From assembly GCF_014842975.1 (NCBI RefSeq), contig NZ_JACYXK010000023.1:1-64000 (forward strand): a stretch of DNA of 64,000 nt, in the 5' to 3' direction. Positions within the stretch are counted from its first letter, which is position 1, and each line of letters starts with the position of its first letter. Below the pieces are notes generated by a model that did not search any database, was not told where the DNA came from, and saw nothing but the letters and a program-made list of their open reading frames with translations. Below are positions 1 through 38,492 of the stretch, piece after piece. The position numbers and the translations under genes were made by a program. The DNA is from Rhodanobacter sp. DHB23 (GTDB lineage: Bacteria; Pseudomonadota; Gammaproteobacteria; Xanthomonadales; Rhodanobacteraceae).

Positions 1-114
1 TTGAACGTGGGAGTGCCCATCCCAGCAGATATTTACAATGGCCTGACCGGTTGGCAACGATGTGACATTGGGGCTAACAGCTGCGGCGATAAGAATGAGT
101 GAGACAATGCTCAT
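1..114 (-). CDS. Cassette 8: secreted or membrane protein, 3' end outside window
   Basis: An ATG at 112-114 opens a frame of 38 codons that runs off the left edge. It begins MSIVSLILIAAAVSPNV, a hydrophobic N-terminus that looks like a signal peptide or a membrane anchor. It starts 5 bp after an attC site, the usual spacing for a cassette gene in this array. Too little is present to assign a family. Confidence 0.55.
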   Translation of the reverse strand, partial: MSIVSLILIAAAVSPNVTSLPTGQAIVNICWDGHSHVQ

Positions 115-118
115 AGAG

Positions 119-175
119 GCCTAACGCTGGAGTTAAGCGGCGGCGAAGCCGTCCGCCTTGAACGAGTAGTTAGGG
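119..175 (-). repeat. attC site 7
   Basis: 57-bp site bounded by the GCCTAAC core (119-125) and GTTAGGG core (169-175). Read on the minus strand, the inner arms GTTCAAGGCGG and CCGCTTAAC pair with an unpaired C, the extrahelical base typical of attC. It supplies the TAA stop of the gene at 170-535. Confidence 0.9.
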
Positions 176-535
176 GTTGCCAGCGCAGACGAGATACGCG
201 TAATCGCTTGGCGACACCTGTTGAGTGAACTGGCTACCTGCATAATTGAGTACGGCAACCGAATGCAGGAAGTTGAGGTTGAAACCATCTCCGGTGACCA
301 CGAGGCTTGGAACGTAAGTGACAATGCTGCTCTGCCAGCCATCTTGATGCGTCATGAGCCAGGTGGAAAGAGTCTTGTACTGCTCTGAGTCTTGATTGAT
401 GGCGCATCGCTTGGTTGAAGCGCCGTTTACCGTAAACGACAGACTGAGCGGGCCACTTGGTAGAGTGAAGTGGATTGACCGAGTGCAGCCACTCAAAGCC
501 AATGCCAAAACCACAAGTAGACCGACTGCCTTCAT
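170..535 (-). CDS. Cassette 7: small lipoprotein of unknown function
   Basis: A 121-residue protein with a short positively charged start, a hydrophobic stretch and a lipobox LSGC with the acylated Cys at residue 17, so it is predicted to be a lipoprotein anchored in the envelope. The remaining ~100 residues are beta-rich in appearance (many S/T/V), with a Cys near residue 44 and one near the C-terminus that could pair. No family is recognised. The ATG lies 5 bp after the upstream attC and the TAA stop is part of the downstream attC core, so the gene fills the cassette. Confidence 0.75.
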   Translation of the reverse strand: MKAVGLLVVLALALSGCTRSIHFTLPSGPLSLSFTVNGASTKRCAINQDSEQYKTLSTWLMTHQDGWQSSIVTYVPSLVVTGDGFNLNFLHSVAVLNYAGSQFTQQVSPSDYAYLVCAGNP

Positions 536-540
536 GTGAC

Positions 541-597
541 CCCTAACGCTGGAGTTAAGCGGCGGCGGAGCCGTCCGCCTTGAACGACTGGTTAGGC
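541..597 (-). repeat. attC site 6
   Basis: 57-bp site bounded by CCCTAAC (541-547) and GTTAGGC (591-597). It differs from its neighbours mainly in the loop (GGCGGCGGAGCC instead of GGCGGCGAAGCC). Supplies the TAA of the gene at 592-990. Confidence 0.9.
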
Positions 598-990
598 TGT
601 ATTGCCTTGAGCCACCAGGGAAAGAAAGGAAGAAAAGTTGGTTGCTACGTTCTCTATGCTGCCCTCAGGGTCGATTGGATCGAAGCTGATTACAGGCCAA
701 GGCTCTGGTGCCCGCATGTCGAGCGCAAGAAGTGCCCCGCCTCCGTTACCGCCGAACACGAACACATTTTGCATCGTGCAGGTACCACTACCCCAATAGT
801 TCAATGCGGCTTCAGCAGAGTCTAGGCAGAAGTTGTAAGGGGATATCGCAAGCTCCACCTCGCCGCCGTTACCCCTAGCTAGCAGATTAATGTAGTTCTG
901 CGGAAGCGCGGGGACGGCAAGCAACAAAGCATCCAGCGCATCGGAGGAGGCCTCGGCGTTGTTGAGCCACGATTCTCTTGGAGTAGCCAT
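592..990 (-). CDS. Cassette 6: SMI1/KNR4 (SUKH)-like protein, possible immunity protein
   Basis: A 132-residue soluble protein with no signal peptide. The central part (LPQNYINLLARGNGGEVEL, then a tyrosine- and tryptophan-containing stretch, then VFGGNGGGALLALDM and PWPVISFDP) has the layout of the SMI1/KNR4 or SUKH superfamily, whose bacterial members are often immunity proteins against polymorphic or contact-dependent toxins. This assignment rests on pattern recognition only. No toxin gene is visible beside it, as expected for a mobile orphan immunity gene in a cassette. It starts 6 bp after attC 5 and ends inside attC 6. Confidence 0.65.
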   Translation of the reverse strand: MATPRESWLNNAEASSDALDALLLAVPALPQNYINLLARGNGGEVELAISPYNFCLDSAEAALNYWGSGTCTMQNVFVFGGNGGGALLALDMRAPEPWPVISFDPIDPEGSIENVATNFSSFLSLVAQGNTA

Positions 991-995
991 GTGAA

Positions 996-1052
996 GCCTA
1001 ACGCTAGAGTTAAGCGGCGGCGAAGCCGTCCGCCTTGAACGAATGGTTAGGG
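996..1052 (-). repeat. attC site 5
   Basis: 57-bp site bounded by GCCTAAC (996-1002) and GTTAGGG (1046-1052). It carries one change (GCTAGAGTT for GCTGGAGTT) compared with the other sites. Supplies the TAA of the gene at 1047-1511. Confidence 0.9.
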
Positions 1053-1511
1053 TTGCGCACCTTGCTGGGCTAGCAACCTACGCACCTCAGATACAACGCT
1101 TTCGCCCTTGGGTAGCTCAGTAGAGTTACCACACGCGTCGACAGTAAACCCATCCTTTGTCCGTGTCAGAAACAACAAGTTCGTCTCCCCCGCGTTCATG
1201 CGATAACCGCCCGAGTCGTTCTCTGCACGAAGCGTAAGGTACTTTGGGACGCTACCTTTAAGCTCTTGCAGACGATGGACCGTATAGACGTATGAGGTAA
1301 TGCCGTCGGGATCGCTCGGGTCTGCTTGAACGTACTGTACGCGCACAACCTTGCCAATGATGATGGCTGGGCTGGCTCCTACTTCATACTTGAGCGGAAT
1401 GTGGTACCCGGAGAGCGTGCTATGCGGGTAGAAGCACACGGCGCTACCAGGCACGGCGTAGATTGCAGCTGAAAGCGCAAAGATGATGCTTGATATGCGG
1501 AATCCTTTCAT
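1047..1511 (-). CDS. Cassette 5: secreted protein with an NTR/TIMP-like look
   Basis: A 154-residue protein with a clear N-terminal signal peptide (residues 1 to about 24, ending GSAVCF). The mature part has an early Cys, a GKVVRVQYV strand, YTVHRLQELKG, LRAENDSGGYRMNAGE, LLFLTRTKDG and VDACGNSTEL. This order of strands and the Cys pair resemble secreted NTR-like (tissue-inhibitor-of-metalloproteinase-like) proteins of Proteobacteria. The fold call is inference; the target is unknown. It starts 5 bp after attC 4 and its TAA is in attC 5. Confidence 0.65.
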   Translation of the reverse strand: MKGFRISSIIFALSAAIYAVPGSAVCFYPHSTLSGYHIPLKYEVGASPAIIIGKVVRVQYVQADPSDPDGITSYVYTVHRLQELKGSVPKYLTLRAENDSGGYRMNAGETNLLFLTRTKDGFTVDACGNSTELPKGESVVSEVRRLLAQQGAQP

Positions 1512-1516
1512 CGCGA

Positions 1517-1573
1517 CCCTAACGCTGGAGTTAAGCGGCGGCGAAGCCGTCCGCCTTGAACGAGATGTTAGGC
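1517..1573 (-). repeat. attC site 4
   Basis: 57-bp site bounded by CCCTAAC (1517-1523) and GTTAGGC (1567-1573). Supplies the TAA of the gene at 1568-1864. Confidence 0.9.
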
Positions 1574-1864
1574 GCGACGCCGCACCATGGATAGCACTGC
1601 GTACGCCATGACACTGTAGATGACGATGCCCAGCGGAACGCTAGCGAGGAACGCGAGGAAGTTGAGCGGCGTGCCCTCATAAACGGGATGCTCCGAAGTG
1701 CCCATGTTGCCGAGCGGTGCAAAGCTTTGTAGCAGTGTGTTTTGCCAGAGAAAGGCGTTGGCGAGAGAGGTGAAGCCAAAGGAGTCGGCGGCAAATGAAA
1801 GCGCGAATAATGCGGCTGTTGCCAGCACACCAATTGCGAAAGCTAAGAGGATGCGTTTGATCAT
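1568..1864 (-). CDS. Cassette 4: small membrane protein
   Basis: A 98-residue protein with two hydrophobic segments, near residues 4-26 and 67-90, separated by a polar loop of about 40 residues, and a basic tail (MVRRRA). It is most likely a two-span inner-membrane protein with the loop in the periplasm. No family is recognised. The ATG is 10 bp after attC 3 and the stop is in attC 4. Confidence 0.65.
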   Translation of the reverse strand: MIKRILLAFAIGVLATAALFALSFAADSFGFTSLANAFLWQNTLLQSFAPLGNMGTSEHPVYEGTPLNFLAFLASVPLGIVIYSVMAYAVLSMVRRRA

Positions 1865-1874
1865 GCGCTTGGAA

Positions 1875-1931
1875 GCCTAACGCTGGAGTTAAGCGGCGGC
1901 GAAGCCGTCCGCCTTGAACGACTGGTTATGC
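1875..1931 (-). repeat. attC site 3
   Basis: 57-bp site bounded by GCCTAAC (1875-1881) and GTTATGC (1925-1931). Its outer core GTTATGC is the most diverged of the array. Supplies the TAA of the gene at 1926-2345. Confidence 0.88.
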
Positions 1932-2345
1932 CTCATGCGCCTGCGAGATGGCAAGCGCCATATGTTGCGCTAACAAGCTGGGGCTGAGCTTGGCTACGGT
2001 CGCGAAGCTGACCTCAGGGACACATGTGACGCCAACCTTTTGGCCACCCCAATACTCCAAGTTGTTTGAAGCACAATGTGGGCAGTGGACAGAAGTTGTG
2101 AATTGTTGACCGGCAACCGGGTCTGCGAGTGCAGCAAGAGCAGGCCAAATTGATGAGGTGCTGCCCGACTTGACTACAGCACGCACTTGAACGGCAAATT
2201 CGTTGAACGCGTCCACGGTGGCGTAGTGCTTTCCGTCTGCGGTGCACAAGACGACCTCTCCGTAGGCAAAGTCGCCAAGACTCGGATGGCCGAACAGTCG
2301 CCCGCAATCGGCGCATTTTGCTTCAAGTAACGCGATGTCTTTCAT
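1926..2345 (-). CDS. Cassette 3: protein with two CxxC motifs, probable zinc binding
   Basis: A 139-residue soluble protein. An N-terminal CADC motif (about residues 11-14) and a central CPHC motif (about residues 88-91, in VHCPHCASNN) could together bind one zinc ion. The rest shows no domain that can be named. No signal peptide or membrane segment is present, so it should be cytoplasmic. It begins 4 bp after attC 2 and ends in attC 3 with the codons for HEA and TAA. Confidence 0.65.
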   Translation of the reverse strand: MKDIALLEAKCADCGRLFGHPSLGDFAYGEVVLCTADGKHYATVDAFNEFAVQVRAVVKSGSTSSIWPALAALADPVAGQQFTTSVHCPHCASNNLEYWGGQKVGVTCVPEVSFATVAKLSPSLLAQHMALAISQAHEA

Positions 2346-2348
2346 GAG

Positions 2349-2405
2349 GCCTAACGCTGGAGTTAAGCGGCGCCGGAGGCGTCCGCCTTGAACGAAATGT
2401 TAGAC
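2349..2405 (-). repeat. attC site 2
   Basis: 57-bp site bounded by GCCTAAC (2349-2355) and GTTAGAC (2399-2405). The loop (GGCGCCGGAGGCG) differs from the other copies but keeps complementarity. It would supply the TAA (2400-2402) of the small gene in cassette 2. Confidence 0.9.
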
Positions 2406-2595
2406 GGGTGCGACGCGATGCGCTTGGGCGAGACTGCTGACCAAAACGAGCGCAGAACATGAGCAACCGACTACCTCAAAACTACCAGCTCTGAAAGCTG
2501 AAGGCTTGCCGCACCACTGCAGAAAATGCTATCGAAGCGAAAGACAGCAAGCCGACGCGAAGCTGGGCGAAACACACGCCACGAAAGACCAACAC
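2400..2595 (-). pseudogene. Cassette 2: short gene, apparently frameshifted
   Basis: No long intact frame lies between attC 1 and attC 2. One frame opens at a GTG (2593-2595) and runs 37 codons to TAG at 2482. A second frame runs from an upstream TAG down to the TAA supplied by attC 2, the same phase in which all six intact cassette genes end. The two frames meet at a run of four T on the minus strand (2523-2526); removing one T joins them into a 64-residue protein ending AQAHRVAPV. A frameshifted gene is therefore the best reading. An orfless cassette, or a sequencing error in the run, are the alternatives. Confidence 0.4.
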
Positions 2596-2603
2596 GAGCA
2601 ACC

Positions 2604-2660
2604 GCCTAACGCTGGAGTTAAGCGGCGGCGAAGCCGTCCGCCTTGAACGAGTTGTTAGGC
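2604..2660 (-). repeat. attC site 1
   Basis: 57-bp site bounded by GCCTAAC (2604-2610) and GTTAGGC (2654-2660). It is the first attC after the leading promoter and supplies the TAA of the gene at 2655-3059. Confidence 0.9.
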
Positions 2661-3059
2661 ACCCAGCTGCTGAGAGCTGAGCGAATGAACAAGCAAGACA
2701 AACATAGCGGCCAAGGCAACGTAGATGATGCCAACAATTGCACCCAACGTGGCGGACGAAGTTGCCTCTAGTGCACTGCTGACCCTGTCGGTACCCGCAC
2801 ACTCCAATGCATTGCGCTGCTTTGACGCGACGAAAATCGGGACGACGTAAAGCAGCGCCGCGCAAAGAAACACTAAGGCTGCAGGAATAAAGCGTGGCCC
2901 GAGTAGGAGTACGAGCGGCCCTAATGGATAAAGCAACACCAGGACGTCCAGAAGGCTCGACTGCCCGAACTCACGCCGTACGACGGATTCGCGGCGCAAG
3001 GCCGCAAACCCGCGAATTGTGAGCACTGAAAGCACAAGGATTAGAAGGATATCTATCAT
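2655..3059 (-). CDS. Cassette 1: membrane protein of unknown function
   Basis: A 134-residue protein with hydrophobic segments near residues 1-20, 37-54, 58-78 and 103-125, so probably four membrane spans. A basic patch (ALRRESVVRREFG) follows the first span and should stay in the cytoplasm. No family is recognised. It is the cassette nearest the leading promoter (33 bp from the -10 to the ATG), so it should be the best expressed gene of the array. Confidence 0.7.
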   Translation of the reverse strand: MIDILLILVLSVLTIRGFAALRRESVVRREFGQSSLLDVLVLLYPLGPLVLLLGPRFIPAALVFLCAALLYVVPIFVASKQRNALECAGTDRVSSALEATSSATLGAIVGIIYVALAAMFVLLVHSLSSQQLGA

Positions 3060-3063
3060 GGGT

Positions 3064-3070
3064 GCCTAAC
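3064..3070 (-). other. Leading core recombination site (attI-like or remnant)
   Basis: A single GTTAGGC core (minus strand) stands at the head of the first cassette without the rest of an attC, the arrangement of an attI/first-cassette junction. It lies about 20 bp downstream of the -10 hexamer of the leading promoter. Confidence 0.65.
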
Positions 3071-3091
3071 GCTTAGTAGACCCCGGATCGG

Positions 3092-3120
3092 GGTATATGC
3101 ACGCCATGCTCCATTGTCGA
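3092..3120 (-). promoter_or_regulatory. Sigma70-like promoter driving the cassette array (Pc-like)
   Basis: On the minus strand TCGACA (3115-3120) and TATACC (3092-3097) are separated by exactly 17 bp. A short inverted repeat CCCCG-GAT-CGGGG (3080-3092) overlaps the probable start of transcription. The position just ahead of the first cassette is where an integron Pc promoter belongs. Confidence 0.6.
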
Positions 3121-3336
3121 TGCGGGCCCGTCAAGCGAATGAATGGGGGCAGTTTCAAGGACTTGCTCTGCCTTCCTGCGCGTTGGCTGATGATTGTTCG
3201 CTTTGCGTATCGCGCGAGACGAGGCGCCATGGTTTATCGCCTCGAACAGGCGGATACGCACCACATCGTTGTGTGGGGTGCGGCGTGGCTGCGTCTTGTT
3301 CGTGGCGACAAGGCGGGAGAAGCCCCTTTCCCCCGG
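3121..3336. other. Spacer between cassette array and pilR, no gene recognised
   Basis: Short open frames exist on both strands but none resembles an integrase, a transposase or any other known protein. No further attC copy is seen. If an integrase gene once stood here, nothing recognisable of it remains. Confidence 0.5.
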
Positions 3337-3362
3337 CCCCTCTCCCGCAAGCGGGAGAGGGG
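3337..3362. repeat. Perfect hairpin repeat, probable terminator of pilR
   Basis: CCCCTCTCCCGC (3337-3348) and GCGGGAGAGGGG (3351-3362) form a perfect 12-bp stem with a 2-nt centre. Hairpins with this CCCTCTCCC arm are common intergenic repeats in Proteobacteria. It lies 8 bp after the pilR stop and could end transcription from that side; there is no strong U-tract. Confidence 0.55.
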
Positions 3363-3370
3363 AGGAGGCA

Positions 3371-38416: not shown

Positions 38417-38492
38417 GGGTCGTTAGCTCAGTTGGTAGAGCACTGGACTTTTAATCCATTGGTCCCGGGTTCGAGTCCCGGACGACCCACCA
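38417..38492 (+). tRNA. tRNA-Lys (anticodon UUU)
   Basis: 76 nt including encoded CCA. The acceptor stem pairs GGGTCGT with ACGACCC, the D arm is TAGCTCAGTTGGTAGAGC, the anticodon loop CTTTTAA carries TTT, and the T arm is CCGGGTTCGAGTCCCGG. It closes the tol-pal-que cluster and has its own promoter and terminator. Confidence 0.97.

Follow-up and report, generated by a model that had tools for sequence, protein, structure and literature searches.

To understand how an array of gene cassettes comes to stand beside a chromosomal regulatory gene with no integrase gene in place, we examined the left end of a stretch of DNA from Rhodanobacter sp. DHB23 (64,000 nucleotides, hereafter the window; assembly GCF_014842975.1, contig NZ_JACYXK010000023.1, positions 1 to 64,000 of the forward strand). 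Genomes, contigs and fetched loci are designated by G, C and L numbers, the present genome being G000 and the contig of the window C25. A preliminary description of this DNA had recognised seven attC recombination sites next to pilR and had proposed either a stranded cassette cluster or cassettes moved by an integrase encoded at another place in the genome. The evidence favours the latter. We consider it probable, at about 0.8, that the array is a satellite integron, possessing its own attI site, probably its own cassette promoter (Pc) and no integrase, and that the integron integrase (IntI) encoded on contig C15 would act in trans on this and other dispersed platforms.

The left end of the window contains seven direct repeats of about 57 nt, each identified as attC from its sequence, its fold and its match to a covariance model, R2, that was trained on these seven and 20 other attC of the same genome and also detects attC in 12 of the other 14 genomes of the genus:

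2605..2661, minus strand: attC 1, proximal to attI
2350..2406, minus strand: attC 2
1876..1932, minus strand: attC 3
1518..1574, minus strand: attC 4
997..1053, minus strand: attC 5
542..598, minus strand: attC 6
120..176, minus strand: attC 7

Each copy scores between 81.3 and 88.5 bits with R2. When folded, the repeats display complementary R boxes and a long inner stem; across the 27 attC of the genome, 96.1% of cells are paired in the named attC structure, compared with 23-53% when the partners are slid, and single copies fold modestly better than shuffled sequences (z of -0.9 to -2.7, minus strand). The earlier recognition of a real integron array is borne out by these three lines of evidence, and the contrary case, in which the copies would fail to fold as attC, does not apply. 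As in an integron cassette array, the attC are repeated and foldable, and the cassettes mostly carry one open reading frame (ORF) in the same direction, with attC at its 3' end. Since the ORFs and attC of the array are all on the minus strand, its leading end is the right end, towards pilR; it begins at about 3064 and runs leftward off the contig. Position 1 is the end of C25, in a genome of 3.97 Mb and 29 contigs, and the array is thus cut by the assembly. The array very probably continues at the right end of C12, because C12 has, just past its last attC, a relative (83% identity) of the sensor/response-regulator gene located after the pilR array in the complete genome G014.

Between the array and pilR lies an element that is homologous to the front of the intI-linked integron of this genome:

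3064..3260, minus strand: front of the putative satellite integron, about 197 bp, comprising an inverted repeat, a 5' relic of intI, a promoter-like site and attI (homology to the intI-linked front)
3064..3102, minus strand: attI core GTGCATATACCCCGATCCGGGGTCTACTAAGCG^TTAGGC; cassettes start after the crossover G^TT
3106..3134, minus strand: candidate cassette promoter Pc, TTGACG-N17-GAGCAT, directed into the array (conservation among fronts)
3204..3260, minus strand: inverted repeat TGCGTATC...GATACGCA, containing a relic of the first ~11 intI codons
3371..4792, minus strand: pilR, encoding a sigma-54-dependent response regulator, the chromosomal neighbour of the platform (name from the preliminary description and context)

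The element occurs at all three array starts of the genome, with the arms TGCRTATC...GATAYGCA, a CTTGACG-N17-GGAGCAT region and an attI core ending in ...GGGGTCTACTAAGCG^TTAGRY. The intI-linked copy on C15 overlaps the first intI codons, and the C25 copy still aligns there; the statement in the preliminary description that even the remnant of the integrase gene is absent from this end has accordingly to be revised. Against the C15 copy, BLAST aligns the C10 element at 86% identity and the final 49 nt of the C25 element at 94%; across the whole alignment, identity is 85.4% for C10 and 62.5% for C25. An alignment of the front with 22 others gave a mean column identity of 68%, and the sequence-only model built from these 23 fronts (R1, match threshold E <= 0.001) scores it at 118.5 bits (E 4.1e-34, this copy being in the training set). 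The arms of the inverted repeat, which overlaps the intI start in most intI-linked copies, pair in 90.8% of cells. CTTGAC is invariant in 23/23 fronts, as are the G, A, A and T of GAGCAT, and from this conservation we predict that TTGACG-N17-GAGCAT functions as Pc. The fronts are conserved up to the crossover and diverge directly after it, both in the alignment and in genome G043 described below. Assignment of attI at the head of the array is consequently a homology-based prediction, resting on similarity to the intI-linked front and on the identity that stops at the crossover in G043.

A scan of the whole genome revealed a single integrase-model match over the cut-off, at C15:677-1618 (479.5 bits, no stop); four further matches are weak, and such weak matches arise in all 14 control genomes. 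There is no intI in the gap between the array and pilR, and tblastn (E 1e-3) detected none within 1.5 kb of the C25 or C10 front. The earlier statement that no intI adjoins the array therefore stands, the only intact copy being on another contig, and no intact intI with attI was found at the left end; attI is at the right end, without intI. The window array consequently lacks the functional intI beside attI that defines a complete integron and, having at least two attC and no neighbouring integrase, fits the definition of a cluster of attC sites lacking integron-integrases (CALIN). Arrays of attC occur at six contig ends of the genome, which by orientation are three starts (C15 with intI, C10 and C25 without) and three distal ends (C12, C19 and C22). 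The genome thus has three fronts and one intact intI. The gene beside the C10 front is of the cyclopropane-fatty-acid-synthase type (PF02353).

Four genomes of the genus, representing four species (G000, G008, G005 and G014), have orthologous pilR satellites. A second orthologous satellite, that of C10, is common to G000 and G008, and a third to G002, G005 and G014. At the pilR locus, G000 and G008 are 95.5% identical over the 3' end of pilR and 87% over the element, with no alignment in the intervening spacer. Comparison of the two arrays, one of the checks proposed earlier, revealed different cassettes on the same platform: over the ~3 kb compared, beyond which both run off their contigs, they have no common cassette, only attC repeats. 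Eight other genomes of the genus (G001, G002, G003, G004, G006, G009, G012 and G013) have neither a front nor attC in 6.5-6.8 kb around the pilR end according to both models, R1 and R2; in G006, G012 and G004, a gene like the one that follows the array in G014 adjoins pilR, as would be expected of an empty site. Because the array has an attI-type platform of its own, which occupies one and the same locus in four species and bears differing cassettes, the idea of a stranded cassette cluster is not favoured.

To determine how widespread such fronts are, we applied R1 to genomes of the genus, the family and the phylum. The genus yielded 37 matches in 10/15 genomes (23 of them the training sequences), and matches were found in 59/147 genomes of the family, G000 included, with two or more in 39 and up to eight in one. 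Among 149 other genomes of the phylum, one had a match, a weak one (E 2.3e-4) from the same order. We fetched 63 fronts: 28 of the 37 genus matches, and 35 that came from eight genomes of the family that were picked for completeness or match number before their attC were known (3 matches there were left out). Full-length or near-full-length intI adjoins 15 of the 63 (one broken, in G006), and attC follow in all 15. Among the remaining 48, 38 head attC arrays in the right orientation, or 34/44 if L293, L294, L296 and L297, fetched after the attC list had been seen, are excluded. Only 2 of 258 attC at the 63 fronts lie on the wrong side, both in G141 C10, and none on the wrong strand, although at many sites ~1.5 kb upstream was examined for this count as against 4.5 kb downstream. 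A piece of intI persists at 10 of the 48 (tblastn E 1e-3); each begins among the first 19 residues and has the divergent arrangement of an integron. The complete chromosome of G014, from the same genus (4.09 Mb), has fronts at 419, 1015, 1249, 1570, 2168 and 2696 kb, of which five head attC in the same orientation, and has intI over the cut-off at 2168 kb only. Two further complete chromosomes agree in part: G013 (3.48 Mb) has three fronts on one chromosome contig, with attC after all three and one intI over the cut-off, and the single front of G001 (3.72 Mb) has intI.

Genome G043 provides the closest view of how satellites relate to the intact integron. It has one complete intI by the integrase model and four satellites that match the intI-linked front at 96-98% identity along 387-564 nt, a stretch that begins within intI and extends to the crossover. 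The four break off at different points within intI and have in common a 1-nt deletion near intI codon 10 that the intact copy does not have. No two of the five fronts match in the 300 nt that follow the crossover. A 533-nt segment is shared at 100% identity by two satellites, forming cassette 1 of the array at 105 kb and cassette 2 of the array at 1299 kb, and its different positions imply cassette gain or loss at a satellite attI. Several near-identical segments in G043 are common to a satellite and another array. Comparable sharing occurs between a satellite and another array in G044 (426 nt, 99.3% identical) and between two satellites in G150 (462 nt, 98.3%). In G000 and G005, contig ends of the intI-linked array and a satellite share exactly 127 nt; in G000 these are the first 127 nt of C25 and C15, so that the sequence opening cassette 8 of the window array also opens cassette 2 of the array on C15. 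Weaker sharing between arrays was found in G013 and G006 (89-91% over ~250 nt).

Several observations weigh against the satellite reading or limit its reach. Ten of the 48 fronts without full-length intI have no downstream attC; two of these are <=0.4 kb and one <=1.5 kb from a contig end, and the remaining seven appear to be empty or decayed or to lie outside what the model can detect. The pilR satellite of G005 has lost its crossover. In G132, the closest segment pair joins two intI-linked arrays and, because both have intI, the longest segments say nothing about satellites; identity to a satellite there is 92% over 470 nt. Some of the differences between arrays could be due to cassettes lost through homologous recombination between attC repeats. 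Clusters without a front also exist: G001 has a small one at ~3.19 Mb with no detected front, and G009 has 14 attC, those listed being scattered (C38, C40, C41 and C43), with no R1 front and no intI over the cut-off, so that not every attC cluster without intI is a satellite. As for the integrase, an intI match spanning the whole model occurs at least once in 10/15 multi-front genomes of the family. The matches of G150, G052, G022 and G055 are truncated or broken only, G017 has no match at E 1e-30, and G132, G123, G141 and G057 each have two to four long matches. In view of these counts, the pattern of one integrase and several fronts holds in G000 and others and is not universal.

The best surviving alternative is that the window array is a relic, a complete integron that lost intI and became a dead CALIN whose attI is no longer used. 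The intI 5' relics at 10 of 48 fronts, the decayed crossover in G005 (contig C5), the fronts without attC and the multi-front genomes without intact intI are all what such decay would leave. A dead front would be hard to reconcile, however, with a pilR platform that is common to four species without intI, yet has no cassette shared between G000 and G008, with the near-identical satellites of G043 that differ in cassettes from the crossover on, or with the conservation of attI core and promoter-like site in copies lacking intI. Loss of intI accounts for the state without intI but not for continued use and multiplication of the platform, and we regard the relic explanation as unlikely. Far less probable is off-target insertion, in which IntI in trans would place cassettes at non-attI sites (attG) with no platform; this is a known route to CALINs (PMC8618304, PMC12444791), but is contradicted for the window array by the ~197-bp element, homologous to the intI-linked front, at all three array starts of the genome. 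Displacement of the array from the C15 intI by rearrangement or misassembly, to which the contig-end location of arrays in a draft genome and the 127 nt shared by C15 and C25 might point, is just as improbable, given the same pilR locus in G008, G005 and the complete G014 and the several fronts on one chromosome contig in G014 and G013.

If the array is a satellite integron, the IntI encoded on C15 would insert and excise cassettes at the window attI and at no fewer than one more satellite front, that of C10. Satellites would arise by copying of the integron front, the copy being broken inside intI, and would persist at fixed loci while their cassettes turn over. We infer catalysis by IntI in trans, the activity of Pc and this route of front copying from the comparisons above. 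It is likewise probable that at least some arrays now called CALINs are satellite integrons. A more tentative proposal, which we put forward as a possibility rather than an expectation, is that one integrase, stress-controlled as in known integrons, serves dispersed attI-Pc docking platforms as a selected and self-propagating architecture, in which there would be several first-position expression slots and platforms would multiply by copying broken inside intI.

Six of the seven complete cassettes of the window array carry one minus-strand ORF each, its 3' end at the attC of that cassette:

2655..3059, minus strand: cassette 1 ORF, 134 aa, membrane-protein-like by eye, no Pfam family over cut-off
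2407..2604, minus strand: cassette 2, no convincing ORF, with relatives in another array of the genome and in G008
1926..2345, minus strand: cassette 3 ORF, 139 aa, zinc-ribbon-like, below Pfam cut-offs
1568..1864, minus strand: cassette 4 ORF, 98 aa, membrane-protein-like by eye
1047..1511, minus strand: cassette 5 ORF, 154 aa, no Pfam match at E up to 1
592..990, minus strand: cassette 6 ORF, 132 aa, SMI1/KNR4 (SUKH) family (PF09346, E 2.8e-8, over cut-off)
170..535, minus strand: cassette 7 ORF, 121 aa, lipoprotein-like start by eye, no Pfam match at E up to 1
1..119, minus strand: start of cassette 8, cut by the contig end, within the 127 nt common to C25 and C15

A PADLOC search with the six cassette proteins gave no match at E 0.01. 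The ~190-nt cassette without a convincing ORF recurs (window 2407-2604, L040:1112-1366 and L092:9571-9830), with copies in two G000 arrays and in a single G008 array, at 84-87% identity by BLAST, and may carry a non-coding RNA or a promoter. A tRNA gene at 38417-38489 is the sole Rfam match over the gathering score in the window.

Other repeated sequences were noted around the arrays. The contig-end overlap of the pilR and intI arrays in G008 is transposase-like by eye and was not used as evidence. Pieces of ~1.5 kb in G014 and G057 arrays were not counted as shared cassettes, one in G014 carrying an IS110-family transposase. The G014 pieces, of ~1.57 kb, occur in near-identical form in four arrays (L085:2980-4059, L083, L084 and L293), with two copies in the intI-linked array; the transposase is in L085, and they may belong to the attC-targeting group of insertion sequences. 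A dispersed repeat (..GGCCCCGGAAAAGCAGGCGCGCATCCTGCGCGCCAGAAGC..) at L037:3025-3350 also occurs upstream of satellite fronts in L085, L086, L092, L098-L100 and L103; relatives of it occur elsewhere in the genome, and it may bear on satellite movement. At ~3582-3780 of L175, from Lysobacteraceae bacterium NML93-0793, a cassette beside intI encodes what we take, by eye, to be an aadA-type aminoglycoside adenylyltransferase. Alignment of the arrays with the replication fork was considered for chromosomes in one or two contigs, using GC skew sampled at ten points along each chromosome, six chromosomes in all, with the leading strand as the G-rich one, and was rejected for want of a common rule: 6/6 arrays run against the fork in G014, 4/6 run with it in G150, G013 is mixed, both run with it in G052, and the skew of G044 and G057 is too weak or irregular to orient the fork.

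The meaning of these platforms concerns the origin of CALINs and whether they are alive. CALINs and complete integrons are of similar abundance in one survey (2961 vs 2760; PMC9024848), and their proposed origins are off-target insertion, loss of intI and rearrangement (PMC8618304). If many are satellites with their own attI and promoter, they would be extra docking and expression sites and not debris, and an integron would be seen as a network instead of a single locus with a single first position; a testable consequence is that CALIN heads would carry the attI of the genome's own integron. Our literature search, which covered few subscription papers and no preprints, found no description of intI-less attI fronts at dispersed loci, and IntegronFinder does not detect attI outside class 1 (PMC9024848).

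In comparison with known systems, CALINs are defined irrespective of attI, whereas the window array has its own attI and promoter-like front. The sedentary chromosomal integron (intI-attI-Pc-array), of which the C15 locus is an example, has the same front, attC type and orientation; satellites differ in being further copies without intI. A 2025 survey of Xanthomonas describes CALINs at conserved positions such as secF (PMC12444791), likewise away from intI, and the part of it that was available makes no mention of attI at the secF-adjacent arrays. In X. euvesicatoria ATCC 11633, one of two Xanthomonas genomes tested, a second attI lies beside a SecF gene (PF02355); it matches the attI of X. 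arboricola at 96% identity over 72 nt, carries the first 34 codons of intI (85%) and is followed by an attC (29 bits). The search of the other genome, X. arboricola pv. populi, gave the intI-linked attI and no second copy. Finally, the delta-attI-type cassettes of class 1 and 2 integrons (PMC12901181) likewise involve an additional attI-derived sequence, recombined by IntI1, but there a partial attI replaces attC within an array, whereas the satellites are whole fronts that head separate arrays elsewhere on the chromosome.

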